Positions 763-49,458 of a stretch of 64,000 bases of DNA are shown in pieces; positions within the stretch are counted from its first letter, which is position 1, and the number at the start of each line of letters is the position of its first letter. Source of the stretch: Roseovarius mucosus. GTDB taxonomy: Bacteria; Pseudomonadota; Alphaproteobacteria; Rhodobacterales; Rhodobacteraceae. Location of the stretch: NCBI RefSeq assembly GCF_002080415.1, contig NZ_CP020474.1:3919501-3983500 (forward strand), read 5' to 3'. Both the position numbers and the translations under genes were made by a program. The notes under the pieces are model-generated. The model was not told the DNA's origin. It worked only from the letters and a program-made list of their open reading frames with translations, and did not search any database.

Positions 763-1259
763 AATGAAATTATTCTATCGTGTGTGAGTTCTAAAACAAG
801 CGACACAATGGGCTCTCACCCGGAATTTGCAGCCCTCAGCTTGAAGGTTTGGTGTCAGGAAACTGCCCAAACTTTGCAAACTCCGCTTCCTGCGCATTGG
901 TGGCCTTGGTGCGTAGTTCAGCATTGCTATCGTGATCCGATGCGCCGTGGCAGCCTCGCGCTTGGCACTCGTATCGTCGATGAGCGGACACAAGGTGCTG
1001 CCGCGCGGGGCCTGTCCGCCGGGTGGGCGCTTCAACCTCATCGGCTGGCAGTTTATGCCTACCAAATCCGTCCGCAGTATCAGTTTGGCGTGAGGTCGCA
1101 AAAGCGCCCGCCCGAGGGGGCGGACCATGCCAGAGGCATGCCTTCGGCATGACCGCTGCGCGGCGGTGCCTGCGGCACCTTGATTCCGCGCATTGGGATT
1201 TGGGGCGTGTGGCCGCTATCGTAACTGCGGTCTTGGGATTAAGACTCCGGGGTTCCCCC
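763..1259. other. intergenic gap without a convincing gene
   Basis: About 500 bases between the orphan gene and the 3' end of htpX. Frames exist on both strands, but none has a plausible ribosome binding site, family motif or consistent codon bias. The right half holds the hairpin cluster annotated separately. The left half could be decayed coding DNA, but I cannot identify the parent. Confidence 0.5.
1105..1179. repeat. cluster of consecutive short hairpins
   Basis: Back-to-back inverted repeats with tiny loops: CGCCC/GGGCG at 1105-1122, CATGCC-TTC-GGCATG at 1137-1151, CCGC-TGC-GCGG at 1153-1163 and GGTGCC-TGC-GGCACC at 1165-1179. The last three share three-base loops. The arrangement resembles REP-like intergenic palindromes. 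It lies downstream of htpX (minus strand) and could act as a transcript end or an mRNA-stabilising element. There is no U-tract. Confidence 0.55.
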
Positions 1260-2120
1260 TCACGCCCAAGGTCCCCTTTGGGCGCGCTCTCCTGCCATCT
1301 CGCGCAGGGCGCGGATGCGGTTGGCGGGGTTGGGGTGGGTGGAGAAGAGTTTGTCATGGGCATGGGCGTGCAGCGGGTTGATGATGAACATATGCGCTGT
1401 GGCCGGGTTGCGCTCGGCGGCGTCATTGTCGATGCGGGCGGCGAGGCCCGAGATTTTCTCGAGCGCCGATGCGAGCCAGAGCGGGTTGCCGCAGATTTCG
1501 GCCCCGATGCGGTCGGCCTCGTATTCGCGGCTACGGCTTATCGCCATCTGCACAAGGCCCGCCGCAAGGGGGGCGAGGATCATCAGCGCCAGCGTGCCAA
1601 TGAGGCCCATGCCGTTGTTGCGGTTGCCGCCGAAGAACATCGCGAAATTGGCCAACATCGAGATGGCCCCGGCAAAGGTGGCCGTCACGGTCATGATCGT
1701 AGTGTCGTGGTTGCGGATATGGGCCAGCTCATGCGCCATGACGGCGGCGATTTCCTCGCGGCTGAGATGGCGCAAGAGGCCGGTGGTGGCGGCGACAGCG
1801 GCATTGGCCGGGTTGCGCCCGGTGGCAAAGGCGTTGGGCTGATCGTTGTCGAGGATATAGACCGCCGGGCGCGGCATGCCGGCGGCATCGGCCATGTCAT
1901 GCACCATTTGGGTAAGCGCCGCGCCTTCGGGGCCAGAGGCGGGGCGGGCATTGTGCATGCGCAGCACCATCCGGTCTGAATTCCACCAGCTAAAGGCGTT
2001 CGTGGCGAGGGCCACGATCAGCGCAAAGAGCGCGCCGCCCATGCCGCCCAAAAGCGCGCCTATGCCCAGAAAGAGTGCGGTCATCGCCGCCATCAAAATG
2101 CCTGTGCGCAGATAGCCCAT
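1260..2120 (-). CDS. htpX: protease HtpX (M48 membrane metalloprotease)
   Basis: Membrane-bound zinc metalloprotease for quality control of inner-membrane proteins. The 286 residues begin [10 protein letters not shown]. Two hydrophobic N-terminal segments (about 6-25 and 28-46) are followed by the zinc motif HELAH at 130-134, two more membrane stretches around 145-195, and the downstream [10 protein letters not shown] segment carrying the third zinc ligand. Length matches the family. I chose the ATG at 2118-2120 because GGGGGAA sits just upstream. An in-frame extension to 2351 would add a non-conserved, Arg-rich leader. A heat-shock-like promoter lies 27-56 bases upstream. Confidence 0.95.
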
Positions 2121-44458: not shown

Positions 44459-47400
44459 ATGAAGATCGAAAGAAAATTCACCACCGCCGGACAAGACGCC
44501 TATGCAGCGCTTGAGTTCGTGACCACGAGTTCCGAAATCCGCAATCCGGATGGCACAACGGTGTTCCGGCTGGATGACATCGAGGTGCCCCGCGGCTGGA
44601 GCCAAGTTGCAAGCGACGTGATCGCGCAAAAATATTTCCGCAAGGCGGGCATTCCGAACCGCATCGAAAAGGTCAAGGAAGAGGGGGTGCCCGAGTTCCT
44701 GTGGCGGTCCGTTCCGGCAGCGGACAATGACGGTTTTGGCGGCGAAACCAGCGCCAAGCAGGTATTTGACCGGCTGGCGGGTGCCTGGTGCTATTGGGGC
44801 TGGAAGGGTGGTTATTTCACCAAAGAGGCCGATGCCCGCGCCTATTTCGACGAGATGCGCTATATGCTGGCGCGCCAGATGGCTGCGCCCAACAGCCCGC
44901 AGTGGTTCAACACCGGCCTGCATTGGGCCTATGGTATCGACGGTCCGAGCCAAGGGCATTACTACGTTGATTTCCAAACCGGCGAGCTGACCAAATCCAC
45001 CTCGGCCTATGAGCATCCGCAGCCGCATGCCTGCTTTATCCAGTCGGTCAAAGACGATCTGGTGGGCGATGGCGGCATCATGGACCTTTGGGTGCGTGAA
45101 GCGCGGCTGTTCAAATACGGCTCTGGCACTGGCACCAATTTCAGCAGCCTGCGCGCCGAGGGCGAAAAGCTGTCGGGTGGTGGCAAGTCGTCTGGCCTTA
45201 TGGGGTTCTTGAAAATCGGTGACCGCGCGGCGGGGGCGATCAAATCGGGCGGCACCACGCGGCGCGCGGCCAAGATGGTGATCTGTGACGCCGACCATCC
45301 CGATATTCAGGAATTCATCAACTGGAAGGTCAAGGAAGAGCAGAAGGTTGCCAGCATCGTGGCCGGGTCCAAGATGCACGAGCAGAAGCTCAACCAGATT
45401 TTCGCTGCGATCCGCGCTTGGGATGGCAGCTCTGAGGATGCGGTTGATCCCAAGAAGAACGAGCAGCTGAAAGCGGCCATTCGTGGTGCCAAGCAGGTGC
45501 AAATCCCCGAGACCTATGTCAAGCGGGTGCTGGATTACGCACGGCAAGGCTATGAGAGCATCGAATTCCCGACCTATGACACAGACTGGGATTCAGAGGC
45601 CTATGCCAGCGTGTCGGGTCAGAATTCCAACAATTCGATCCGCGTCACCGATGCGTTTCTGAAGGCGGTCAAGGATGATGCCGATTGGGCGCTGATCAAC
45701 CGCACCGATGGGTCCGTTGCCAAGACGATCAAGGCGCGCGATCTATGGGAAGATGTGGGCCACGCGGCCTGGGCCTGTGCCGATCCGGGTATTCAGTATC
45801 ACGACACCGTCAACGCCTGGCACACCTGCCCGGAGGATGGCGAAATCCGGGGCTCCAACCCCTGTTCGGAATACATGTTCCTCGACGATACCGCCTGTAA
45901 CCTGGCGTCGATGAACCTGTTGAAATTCTTTGGGGACGGCAAGTTTGATGCCGATGCCTATATGCACGCCACGCGGCTCTGGACCGTGACGCTGGAAATC
46001 TCGGTGACGATGGCGCAGTTCCCGTCCAAGGAAATCGCGCAACTCAGCTATGAGTTCCGCACGCTGGGTCTGGGCTATGCCAATATCGGCGGTTTGCTCA
46101 TGAACATGGGCTTTGGCTATGACAGCGACGAGGGCCGCGCGTTGTGTGGGGCGCTGACCGCGATCATGACCGGCGTGGCCTATGCCACAAGTGCCGAGAT
46201 GGCCGGAGAGTTGGGGGCCTTTGCGGGCTACAAGCGCAACAGCAAGCATATGCTGCGCGTGATCCGCAACCACCGCAACGCCGCCTATGGCGCGACCGAA
46301 GGGTATGAAGGGCTTGCGGTGAAACCTGTGCCGCTCGACCACAAGAATTGCCCGGATGCGCGGCTCGTTGATCTGGCGATGGCATCTTGGGACGAGGCGC
46401 TGAAGCTGGGCGAAAAGCACGGCTACCGCAATGCCCAGACTTCGGTCATCGCGCCCACGGGCACCATCGGTCTTGTGATGGATTGCGATACCACCGGTAT
46501 CGAGCCTGATTTCGCGCTGGTCAAGTTCAAGAAACTGGCGGGCGGTGGCTATTTCAAGATCATCAACCAGTCGGTGCCTGCCGCCTTGGAAAAGCTGGGC
46601 TATGGTCCGGCGCAGATCGAGGAAATCGTAAGCTATGCGGTGGGCCATGGCACTATCGGCAATGCGCCGGGGATCAACCACACGTCGTTGATTGGCCACG
46701 GCTTTGGTCCCAATGAATTGGCCAAGGTGGATGCCGCGCTCGGCTCTGCCTTTGACATCCGGTTCGTGTTCAACCAGTGGACGCTGGGCGCGGAGTTCTG
46801 CACCAATGTTCTGGGCATCCCGACGGAAAAGCTGAACGATCCGACGTTCGATATTCTGGCGCATCTGGGCTATTCCAAGCGCGATGTCGAATTGGCCAAC
46901 GACCATGTGTGCGGCACGATGACATTGGAAGGCGCGCCCTATCTCAAGGCGGATCATTACCACGTCTTTGACTGCGCCAACCCCTGCGGCAAGAAGGGCA
47001 AGCGCTATCTTGGCGTCGAGAGCCATATCACCATGATGGCGGCGGCGCAGTCGTTTATCTCGGGGGCGATTTCCAAGACCATCAACATGGCCAATGACGC
47101 CACGATCGAGGATTGTCAGAAAGCCTATGAATTGTCGTGGTCGCTGGGCGTCAAGGCGAATGCGCTCTATCGCGATGGATCGAAGCTGAGCCAGCCGCTT
47201 GCGGCAAGTTTGGTTGAGGATGATGACGAGGCCGCCGAAATCCTCGAATCCGGCACGCCGCAGCAAAAGGCGCAGGTGCTGGCCGAGAAGATCGTCGAAA
47301 AGGTGATCATCAAGGAAATCCAGAAATCGCACCGCGAGAAGCTGCCGGAGCGCCGGAAGGGCTATACGCAAAAGGCCATTGTCGGCGGTCACAAGGTTTA

Positions 47401-48139
47401 CTTGCGCACCGGCGAATATGAAGATGGCAAGCTGGGTGAAATCTTTATCGACATGCACAAGGAAGGTGCAGGGTTCCGGGCGATGATGAACAATTTCGCC
47501 ATCGCCGTGTCGGTTGGCCTGCAATACGGTGTGCCGCTGGAGGAATTCGTCGATGCCTTCACCTTCACCAAGTTCGAGCCGGCAGGCATGGTGCAGGGCA
47601 ATGACAGCATCAAGAACGCCACCTCGATCCTTGACTATATCTTCCGCGAATTGGCGGTAAGCTATCTGGATCGCACCGATCTGGCGCATGTCAAACCCTC
47701 GGGCGCGTCGTTTGACGATCTGGGGCGCGGCGAGGAAGAAGGCGTGCGCAATGTCTCGGAGATGAGCGAGGCCGCGGCCAGCCGTTCGCTGGAAGTGCTC
47801 AAGCAGATCAGTTCAACGGGCTATCTGCGCAAGCGTCTTCCGCAAGAGTTGGTGGTGTTTCAGGGCGGTCAGACCCTCGCCCGCGCCGCAGGCGATGGCA
47901 TGGACCCAATGACCATGCTGGCCACGCTGGTGCCCGAGACGGCAACAGCCACCGTGTCGGCGGCGATGACCACGACAACGGCGGTCGCCTCTGGCTCGGT
48001 CAGCATGGATGCCCGCACCAAGGCGCGGCTTCAGGGCTACGAAGGCGAGGCCTGCGGCGATTGCGGCAACTACACGCTGGTGCGCAACGGGACCTGCATG
48101 AAGTGCAACACCTGTGGTGCGACAAGCGGGTGTAGCTGA
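44459..48139 (+). CDS. nrdJ: class II (B12-dependent) ribonucleoside-diphosphate reductase
   Basis: Makes deoxyribonucleotides with adenosylcobalamin, so it works with or without oxygen. The 1226 residues are normal for the long alphaproteobacterial NrdJ; no intein. Markers include [27 protein letters not shown] (redox Cys), [43 protein letters not shown] [21 protein letters not shown] and the C-terminal Cys-rich tail [19 protein letters not shown]...CGATSGCS, which re-reduces the active site. Repression by NrdR is predicted. The last 77 bases are repeated downstream. Confidence 0.97.
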
Positions 48140-48151
48140 GGAGATTGGGAC

Positions 48152-48361
48152 ATGGGAACGGTAACAAAAATTGTGGATGGAGAATCTACTGGATTTGATG
48201 GGAGCACGGTCTTGGTAATGACTGACGGGTCAATTTATCGGCAGACACATTACTATTACGAGTACCACTATCAGTATCGCCCTCAAGCCACGATCATTGA
48301 TGATCGAGAAGTTATTCTGCCGGGAATACGATGTCCCGTAAGAGTCGAAAGGTTGCGCTAA
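48152..48361 (+). CDS. small hypothetical protein after nrdJ
   Basis: 69 residues with good SD (GAGGAGATTGGGAC) 12 bases after the nrdJ stop. The sequence looks beta-rich and aromatic (SIYRQTHYYYEYHYQYRPQ) and ends RVERLR. It is markedly more A+T-rich than nrdJ. Its stop codon falls inside the duplicated nrdJ 3' sequence, at bases that differ from the parent (GGCAAC to GCTAAC). I recognise no family. It may be recent or imported. Confidence 0.6.
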   Translation: MGTVTKIVDGESTGFDGSTVLVMTDGSIYRQTHYYYEYHYQYRPQATIIDDREVILPGIRCPVRVERLR

Positions 48362-48429
48362 CTACACGCTGGTGCGCAACAGGACCTGCATGAGGTGCAA
48401 CAACTGTGGTGCGACAAGCGGGTGTAGCT
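48353..48429 (+). repeat. second copy of the nrdJ 3' end (77 bp direct repeat)
   Basis: 48353-48429 matches 48061-48137 at 72 of 77 positions, offset exactly 292 bases. In the nrdJ frame it still reads through to a stop codon, encodes all five Cys of the NrdJ tail covered by the repeat, and ends SGCS then TAA. The five differences change four residues (G to A, G to R, K to R, T to N). No start codon or nrdJ body precedes it, so it is a tail remnant. Confidence 0.9.
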
Positions 48430-48461
48430 AACATTCAGTGCTGACCGCGAGGGGACAAGTT

Positions 48462-48701
48462 ATGGCGACAACGACATACTTTGACGAAACGATCAAGGAT
48501 CAGGATGAACGATGCAGCATGAACGTCGAGTTTGGTCGGTGCTCGTTTTATTCGGGATGTGACGTGAAGTCAGGTCAAGGAACCGATAGCATAATCCTTA
48601 AAGTCAATGACGAGTGCGTCATCATGGATATTCAGATGGCAAAAAAATTCGTCAACGCGGCTGCCGATGTAGGCCGTTATTTCGGTATTCTCGACGAGTG
48701 A
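48462..48701 (+). CDS. small hypothetical protein after the nrdJ tail copy
   Basis: 79 residues from the ATG at 48462 with GAGGGGACAAG upstream; an in-frame GTG at 48438 would add eight. The protein is acidic with three central Cys (ERCSMNVEFGRCSFYSGCDV) and one later, and a C-terminal helix (MAKKFVNAAADVGRYFGILDE). It is also A+T-richer than neighbours. No family is recognised. It lies directly behind the nrdJ tail copy and before a terminator, so it could be read with nrdJ. Confidence 0.65.
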   Translation: MATTTYFDETIKDQDERCSMNVEFGRCSFYSGCDVKSGQGTDSIILKVNDECVIMDIQMAKKFVNAAADVGRYFGILDE

Positions 48702-48821
48702 TACGCTAGAAAACATATCCATGAATCAGAGACACGGGGCGGGTGCGCTCGCCCCGGACGCGGATCGGAAGCAGGCAACAACCATAGTCGGGCAGTGAAT
48801 GACACCCGGTTCGCGAGACTC

Positions 48822-48848
48822 GAGGGGGCCTAGTGCCCCCTCTTTTTC
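48822..48848 (+). terminator. rho-independent terminator of the nrdJ region
   Basis: GAGGGGGC (48822-48829), loop CTAGT, GCCCCCTC (48835-48842), then CTTTTTCT. It probably ends the nrdJ transcript including both small genes. A weaker GGGGCG/CGCCCC hairpin lies at 48736-48755. Confidence 0.9.
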
Positions 48849-48921
48849 TGTCTAACGTGTGTCGCGCCCGATCAAAAACCGTCCCGGGCTTGACTTAGGA
48901 CCTCTTCGACGCAGAGCAGAG

Positions 48922-48942
48922 GCCCCGGCTTGGGGCCGGGGC
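48922..48942 (-). terminator. hairpin downstream of the PCuAC gene
   Basis: GCCCCGGC (48922-48929) and GCCGGGGC (48935-48942) form a perfect 8-bp stem with a five-base loop, 45 bases after the minus-strand copper chaperone stop. There is no U-tract. Confidence 0.4.
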
Positions 48943-48987
48943 GATGTGAATTTGATCGGATGCAACATGCAGGCGCCCGTGTGGGGG

Positions 48988-49458
48988 TCAGTGACCCATC
49001 TTGGAATGATCCACGCCATCGGTCGGATCGACCATGAATTCGACCTCAACCGGACCCATCTGCTCGAAAAGGAAGGTCGCGGGCACCATATCGCCTTCTT
49101 TGAGTGGGGCGGTCAGGCCCATGAGCATCACATGCATGCCACCCGGCTCCAGCACCACGGTTTCGCCTGCGGGGATGTCGATCCCGGCAATCGGCTGCAT
49201 CCGCGCCACCCCGTCGCTGCCATGTTCGGTGGTGTGCAGGGAGGTTACTTTGGCGGCGGCGGTGTCGATGCCAATCAGGCGAATCGCGATCTCGCCCTCA
49301 TTGCTGATGGCCATATAGGCCGCCGCTGATCTGGCCCCGGCGAAGGGTTCGTTGATATGGGGATGGATGATTTCGATTGCGTCTTTCTTGACGCTATGGG
49401 CTTGGGCCGCGCCGCAAAGCGACAATGTCGCCAAAATGGCCAAGGCAAGCTGTTTCAT
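48988..49458 (-). CDS. PCu(A)C-type periplasmic copper chaperone
   Basis: 156 residues with signal peptide (about 1-20, ending GAAQA). The copper-binding core has TTEHGSDGVARMQPI and EPGGMHVMLMG, the Met/His ligands of the H(M)X10MX21HXM family. An extra His/Met-rich tail is DHSKMGH. It delivers Cu(I) to the CuA or CuB centre of cytochrome oxidase. The start at 49458 has AGGA upstream. A frame extension to 49470 adds only four residues. It stands alone, without ScoI beside it. Confidence 0.92.
   Translation of the reverse strand: MKQLALAILATLSLCGAAQAHSVKKDAIEIIHPHINEPFAGARSAAAYMAISNEGEIAIRLIGIDTAAAKVTSLHTTEHGSDGVARMQPIAGIDIPAGETVVLEPGGMHVMLMGLTAPLKEGDMVPATFLFEQMGPVEVEFMVDPTDGVDHSKMGH

Follow-up and report, generated by a model that had tools for sequence, protein, structure and literature searches.

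The interval between the stop codon of nrdJ, a core metabolic gene, and a conserved structured RNA at its 3' end has repeatedly served as a docking site for small cargo genes, most of them pointing in the nrdJ direction. The site is described here from a stretch of 64,000 nucleotides of Roseovarius mucosus (NZ_CP020474.1, 3,919,501-3,983,500, forward strand), hereafter the window, and from the corresponding nrdJ 3' ends of its relatives. At some of these sites a second copy of the nrdJ tail lies behind the cargo, and the chances are slightly better than even that such sites arise by displacement, in which cargo would be exchanged without an integrase through recombination in nrdJ and an illegitimate joint, the old tail being kept downstream as copy 2. 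The features of the window on which the argument turns are as follows.

44459..48139, + strand: nrdJ, class II (B12-dependent) ribonucleotide reductase of 1226 residues with a Cys-rich C-terminal tail (NCBIfam NF005736 equivalog, ORF)
48061..48137, + strand: tail copy 1, the nrdJ 3' end in use (direct repeat; right flank compared with the empty site of relative G024)
48138..48143, + strand: GAGGAG, Shine-Dalgarno-like stretch ahead of orf69, overlapping the nrdJ stop (sequence)
48152..48361, + strand: orf69, first cargo gene, its stop inside tail copy 2 (ORF, homologue search)
48153..48713, + strand: full extent of the cargo block, judged against the empty sites of G019 and G024, with approximate edges set by eye (GC 0.48 for the interval from the nrdJ stop to the RNA block)
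48353..48429, + strand: tail copy 2, interpreted as the former nrdJ end left stranded, and in the window probably not translated (direct repeat, codon comparison)
48450..48454, + strand: AGGGG, Shine-Dalgarno-like stretch of orf79, in the leader directly 3' of copy 2 (sequence)
48462..48701, + strand: orf79, second cargo gene, with one relative (P0002, 64%) (ORF, homologue search)
48735..48855, + strand: conserved structured nrdJ 3' RNA with an intrinsic terminator at its end, hairpin and T-run at about 48822-48847 (profile, covariation)

The nrdJ gene is intact, its product scoring 2220.7 bits against the NCBIfam NF005736 equivalog (cut-off 1737). An initial annotation of this DNA had reported that 77 bases of the nrdJ 3' end recur at an offset of 292 with 72 of 77 identical, and sequence comparison of 48061-48137 with 48353-48429 bears this out. 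No other direct repeat of the 64-kb window is comparable: the next best within 2 kb matches at 39 of 45 bases, and no repeat of at least 30 bases appeared in 20 mononucleotide shuffles of the window in 2-kb blocks. The stop of orf69 (TAA, 48359-48361) does form within the second copy, as had been read. Of the two small genes orf69 alone is bounded by the repeats; orf79 lies outside them, in the order copy 2, orf79 leader, orf79, 3' RNA. Both small genes had been called orphans. This stands for orf69, which has no relative but itself among 5.8 billion proteins, but not for orf79, which has a single distant relative (P0002, 80 residues, 64% identical) and no match in the other 393 of the 394 family genomes searched. 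Scans with family and domain profiles assign neither protein to a known domain or defence family at cut-off, and the search for phage DNA resembling the window insert found none.

Tail DNA was sought in 84 genomes of GTDB Roseovarius, the own genome included, and found in 79, in G077 by 23 bases only; full-length matches across the genus are 82-98% identical to the tail of the window. The nearest relatives (G019, G024 and G036) have empty sites, in which a single tail is separated from a conserved GC-rich block by no more than a few dozen bases. A total of 141 nrdJ 3' ends was compiled, comprising (i) 77 of the 79 matching genus genomes (without G026 and G077), (ii) 50 loci of other genera and (iii) 14 loci added for other reasons. 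The other-genus set is biased towards similar tails because it was drawn from the top of the ranked list of tail matches, with five skipped. A profile of the GC-rich block, which corresponds to the structured 3' RNA, matches 120 of the 141 ends, and the distance from nrdJ stop to block is either at most 168 or at least 239 bases, with nothing between; cargo was scored as present when this distance exceeds a cut of 200 bases. Filled sites make up 14 of the 63 scorable genus loci and 13 of the 48 scorable family-sample loci from other genera, a further 14 genus and 2 family-sample loci being unscored for want of a recognisable block.

These 27 unselected cargo loci were joined by five with the block and five lacking it, several of them found through their cargo or second tail, to give 37. 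The commonest cargo is an IrrE/M78-like peptidase, which occupies 18 of the 37 loci as one blastp-linked cluster (9 of the 27 unselected); the remaining cargos form about a dozen groups without mutual blastp similarity, and at locus G179 the interval is filled yet holds no ORF of 40 residues. In three genomes, a small ORF precedes an IrrE-like peptidase as a two-gene cargo behind nrdJ (L081 in G469, L172 in G457 and L146 in G054, two of them from other genera). A family of small proteins of 91-96 residues recurs as nrdJ cargo in L023 (G009), L009 (G003), L031 (G012) and L173 (G312), with a similar ORF (MAKMSY...) present in G026. The nrdJ strand was the one on which cargo was read; three of the 32 block-bearing cargo loci (G038, G039 and G345) have their longest ORF on the opposite strand. 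Read-through from nrdJ into the cargo is likely, judging from gene spacing, because the longest forward ORF begins 5-14 bases past the nrdJ stop in 13 of these 32 loci.

Among the relatives, then, some sites are empty, others have a single tail and different cargo, and still others combine two tails with unrelated cargo, which upholds the proposal of the initial annotation that a cassette was inserted behind nrdJ. The comparison of the downstream region that it had advised turned up single nrdJ ends with different cargo, and arrangement and cargo both vary among relatives, rather than showing the uniform pattern with invariant cargo that was to count against the proposal. Inspection by eye of the ORFs listed for the 37 cargo loci, a scan confined to the cargo intervals, revealed no recognisable integrase or transposase, and neither did Pfam scans of ten cargo proteins. 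Titles and abstract openings of the open-access literature, a collection that leaves most subscription papers outside, gave no description of a docking site at the nrdJ 3' end.

The RNA that bounds the site downstream is supported by covariation: across 34 sequences, 17 of 19 pairs change on both sides, against a shuffle mean of 5.7, and structures slid along the alignment score at most 0.132 against 0.321. In its own genome the RNA model finds one high-scoring match, at 86.4 bits, with the next at 14.8, and Rfam gives no match above thresholds in 47900-49100. A class-wide search with stricter filters found the RNA in 3 of 96 genomes, two of them of the own family and one a weak match outside; weak matches lie at G293:C1:659261-659373 and G567:C104:8922-9039.

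A second copy of the nrdJ tail, as distinct from a separate nrdJ, is present in five genus genomes: G000 (own), G001, G034, G063 and, across a contig break, G026. In the family sample a 33-residue tail query matches 364 of 394 genomes, nine of which have two matches; inspection showed tandem copies in six (G000, G115, where a run of N separates them, G120, G160, G444 and G469) but not in three. The second matches of G193, G272 and G387 are not tandem and were dropped. The class-wide search gave a tail match in 86 of 142 genomes, and the 84 of these outside the own family include no sure tandem case; in G544, outside the family, a contig break intervenes and the locus is uncounted. The 23-base second matches of G004, G013 and G077 were dropped, and G018 was rejected since its second full-length nrdJ is on another contig. 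The two nrdJ genes of G018 (L065 and L066) represent a second gene or contamination. G115 and G026, in the latter of which two contigs end inside the tail, look two-copy and were kept apart from the resolved set. There remain ten resolved tandem loci with several cargo families, namely the window, G001, G034, G063, NBU2976 (G444), UBA3080, Pararhodobacter, G160, G120 and G469, which by our own count represent about seven independent events. Among the 27 unselected cargo loci, four have a second tail (own, G001, G034 and G063).

The edges of the repeats are informative about how the second tail came to be there. In ten of ten loci the repeat reaches the nrdJ stop and the copies diverge 0-4 bases beyond it, whereas the left edge varies by locus; with the stop counted, the repeats are 56-123 bases long, and that of the window is 79. 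The later filling of a tandem duplication by foreign DNA, which the initial annotation had offered as one origin, fails to account for ten of ten repeats halting at that stop. A fixed right edge and a variable left edge are expected from homologous joining on the left combined with non-homologous joining in the resident tail on the right. In the displacement favoured here, an incoming nrdJ 3' end with its stop and cargo would pair with the resident by homology within nrdJ; the incoming right-hand end, lacking homology, would be closed by an illegitimate joint inside the resident nrdJ tail; and the resident tail fragment, together with whatever lay behind it, would be shifted downstream and left as copy 2. 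In the window, the resident would already have borne orf79 and the newcomer would have brought tail copy 1 and orf69. The joint would lie at about 48353, which is why orf69 would end inside copy 2.

The layout of the loci is consistent with this direction of displacement. At the resolved tandem loci the second nrdJ tail comes after the first cargo, and the orf79 leader comes right behind copy 2 in the window, as expected for an older end pushed down. In G001 it is copy 2, not copy 1, that carries the flank of empty relatives such as G010 and G020, which argues that copy 2 is the resident end there. For the window, a block of orf69, tail copy 2 and orf79 may instead have been inserted once into the 3' UTR, because the flank of copy 1 looks native as well: its right flank agrees with the empty site of G024 at 13 of 16 positions, the best among 140 loci (median 6). 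The two window copies have in common two synonymous-site variants (the third base of GGG/AGG, and ACA) that are absent from G019, G024 and G036, so either donor and resident were of one lineage or the copies were converted. The comparison covers one genome per species, a set with neither donor molecule, intermediate nor before/after strain pair.

Insertion with a long target duplication would likewise leave direct repeats around the first cargo. Long direct target repeats of variable length bound the first cargo at the ten resolved loci, and the two copies show no difference across the repeat in G034, G063, G160 and G469, as if the duplication were fresh. The right edge is not arbitrary, however. 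On our reading of such insertions the repeat ends should be unrelated to gene structure; here all ten coincide with the nrdJ stop, and selection for an intact NrdJ would bar shorter repeats but not longer ones. Copy 2 of the window, moreover, sits within the cargo block and not at its edge. This origin is therefore regarded as unlikely.

A different kind of exchange is conceivable, in which tail-flanked cargo excises as a circle and re-enters any nrdJ through a single RecA-dependent crossover of the Campbell type. The range of tail identity across the genus given above would allow it, and the copies of one sister pair behave as if recombining. The nrdJ and peptidase trees each place NBU2976 and UBA3080 as sisters, and the left repeat edge is the same in the two (123 bases each), yet their copies differ at 4 and 11 of 123 bases within a genome against 16-17 between the genomes. 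This similarity of copies within a species suggests that the tail copies convert each other, which is the simplest account of copies closer within than between genomes. Outside this pair, support in the nrdJ and peptidase trees is too weak to show transfer. Against the circle stands the joint between cargo and tail 2, which differs among lineages with the same peptidase family although a circle would bring one joint. At least four joints occur in the 200-residue family, their spacings counted by eye: (i) a spacing of 26 nt in three Roseovarius, (ii) 88-89 nt in NBU2976 and UBA3080, (iii) that of Pararhodobacter and (iv) a degenerate remnant in Pseudooceanicola. The joint is therefore not carried by one fixed mobile circle, and exchange through such circles is very doubtful.

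Whether copy 2 is itself maintained as a gene bears on how the repeats should be interpreted. In the window, copy 2 differs from copy 1 by no indel and retains all five Cys that it covers, so the earlier statement that frame and Cys are kept holds at the level of the letters; the frame, though, is probably not read, because a stop precedes the repeat by four codons and no ATG, GTG or TTG follows before it. The four codons that differ are all changed non-synonymously, apart from the stop (TGA to TAA), as had been observed, and the chance of four out of four is about 0.32, by itself not unusual. Taken together with the frame lacking a usual start, these changes make the window copy look released from constraint.

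Other second tails are suggestive of translated mini-proteins, and on one reading copy 2 is retained because its translation yields a short NrdJ-tail peptide, coupled to the cargo gene in front of it. In G001, G063, G444, UBA3080 and G160 an in-frame ATG or GTG lies at the cargo stop or at most 25 nt away; 5' of the internal ATG of the tail, by contrast, the window has no start codon, G034, G120 and G469 have only CTG (in G469 no ATG, GTG or TTG lies ahead of the second tail), and L111 has TTG/CTG. Translational coupling was rejected as a general rule, since an NTG arises automatically when the cargo stop is TGA in the -1 frame and since the window and G469 are without ATG, GTG or TTG. The 26-nt spacing from cargo stop to tail, again a count by eye, is constant in the three Roseovarius even though their spacers are not conserved in sequence; it may be chance, because G120 has the same spacing with a different cargo. 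Codon differences outside the window number 3 non-synonymous against 12 synonymous (P = 0.0017 under a simple model with a neutral copy 2). The P value rises to 0.03 when the four codons of the window are added, and a synonymous excess would also result from two functional nrdJ sources or from conversion. A functional second tail is accordingly thought rather improbable as an explanation of the repeats. One may picture, with slim odds, a more specific form in part of the family, where a second tail of 31-53 residues would be translationally coupled to the IrrE/PprI-like peptidase and, as a decoy, would make up with it a module that targets the redox-active C-terminus of NrdJ or uses it for sensing, a role that the window tail, beside other cargo, would have lost. 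In G034 (L062 / L060) the peptidase cargo has an in-frame stop near its start and both nrdJ tails are identical (72/72), as if the cargo decayed faster than the repeats.

The inspected loci with the peptidase of 200 residues number 12, and at 11 of these it comes immediately after nrdJ: 8 of 8 in genome contigs, G022, G454 and G034, the last found via nrdJ itself. The cargo protein of G001 is identical to an R. marisflavi record. The twelfth locus, L204 (G450:C88, about 768-1361, minus strand), is not behind nrdJ; its peptidase gene is convergent with a gene resembling uvrB, which we take to be another DNA-repair gene end. A protein collection includes 196 relatives, and some among the best 120 of the 196 are named IrrE-like. 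The family scores 14.1 and 16.2 bits against Pfam M78, below the cut-off of 22, and at E 0.01 13 of 45 members match M78 and 29 of 45 match M48; H100, E101 and H104 (HExxH) are invariant in the 45 members. There is no sequence match in the PDB. The predicted structure (pLDDT 89.4) comes nearest in fold to PprI/IrrE: its best PDB matches are PprI at a probability of 0.98-0.99, yet the E-values are weak (0.04) and TM is at most 0.46. The peptidase cargos of G080, G120 and G054 do pass the M78 cut-off of 22, at 53.2, 37.0 and 63.5 bits. PprI senses DNA damage through binding of single-stranded DNA, according to PMC10904395, and a PprI-like peptidase behind nrdJ may be linked to dNTP supply.

Displacement of this kind calls for rare events and a source of DNA. 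Homology-facilitated illegitimate recombination occurs at 3x10^-10 per recipient in E. coli conjugation (PMC3240628, in part) and elsewhere lies orders of magnitude below normal recombination (PMC5361080, in part). Rhodobacter gene transfer agents carry fragments of about 4.5 kb (extract of PMC9690577), and by analogy such agents would be a candidate natural vehicle for cargo exchange. Spread by virus or plasmid was rejected: the search of viral contigs confirmed no relative of the 200-residue peptidase among 50 stretches matching the pattern, none was found on plasmids, and insert-like phage DNA was likewise lacking.

The site has several uses. The end of a core gene serves as one defined address in the chromosome where environmental bacteria gather small and mostly unstudied genes with no recognised integrase, and the joints preserved there allow the mechanism of exchange to be read. 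It also ties a zinc-peptidase-like gene family closely to the enzyme that makes dNTPs. The orphan cargo genes and the conserved 3' RNA form a ready test list, and if the copies do convert each other, the site lets recombination between short repeats be assayed under natural conditions in this group.

Several known systems bear comparison. Integrative elements use gene 3' ends as att sites, insertion preserving an intact end, and an att-like logic had been suggested for the window. The nrdJ site differs in having no recognised integrase or transposase and no fixed core, which leaves the att-like reading unsupported; its left repeat edge is variable (56-123 bases), and only 4 of the 27 unselected cargo loci have a second tail. 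The orphan toxin tips of Rhs and CDI systems form strings of 3' ends orphaned through homology at a conserved gene. They resemble the nrdJ site in these orphaned ends, whereas NrdJ itself is invariant and only the genes behind it vary.

Restriction-modification genes insert with long target duplication (Nobusato et al. 2000, as summarised in part of PMC3031569). As at the nrdJ site, one or more small genes then lie beside long, variable target repeats with no transposase; unlike those insertions, the nrdJ repeats always end at the stop of one gene, and no restriction-modification gene was recognised among the nrdJ cargo. A parallel in construction is offered by the type VI secretion effector-immunity arrays of V. 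cholerae, for which sequential displacement akin to homology-facilitated illegitimate recombination has been proposed (PMC5361080, in the part available). Both have a conserved upstream anchor, and in both old 3' parts are moved downstream and kept as an array. In contrast with the V. cholerae arrays as that part describes them, the anchor at the nrdJ site is a core metabolic gene outside the exchanged system, the stranded piece is a fragment of nrdJ, and the cargo is often unrelated between loci. The conserved anchor, the variable non-homologous joint and the retained old end that mark sequential displacement by homology-facilitated illegitimate recombination are all present at the nrdJ site.
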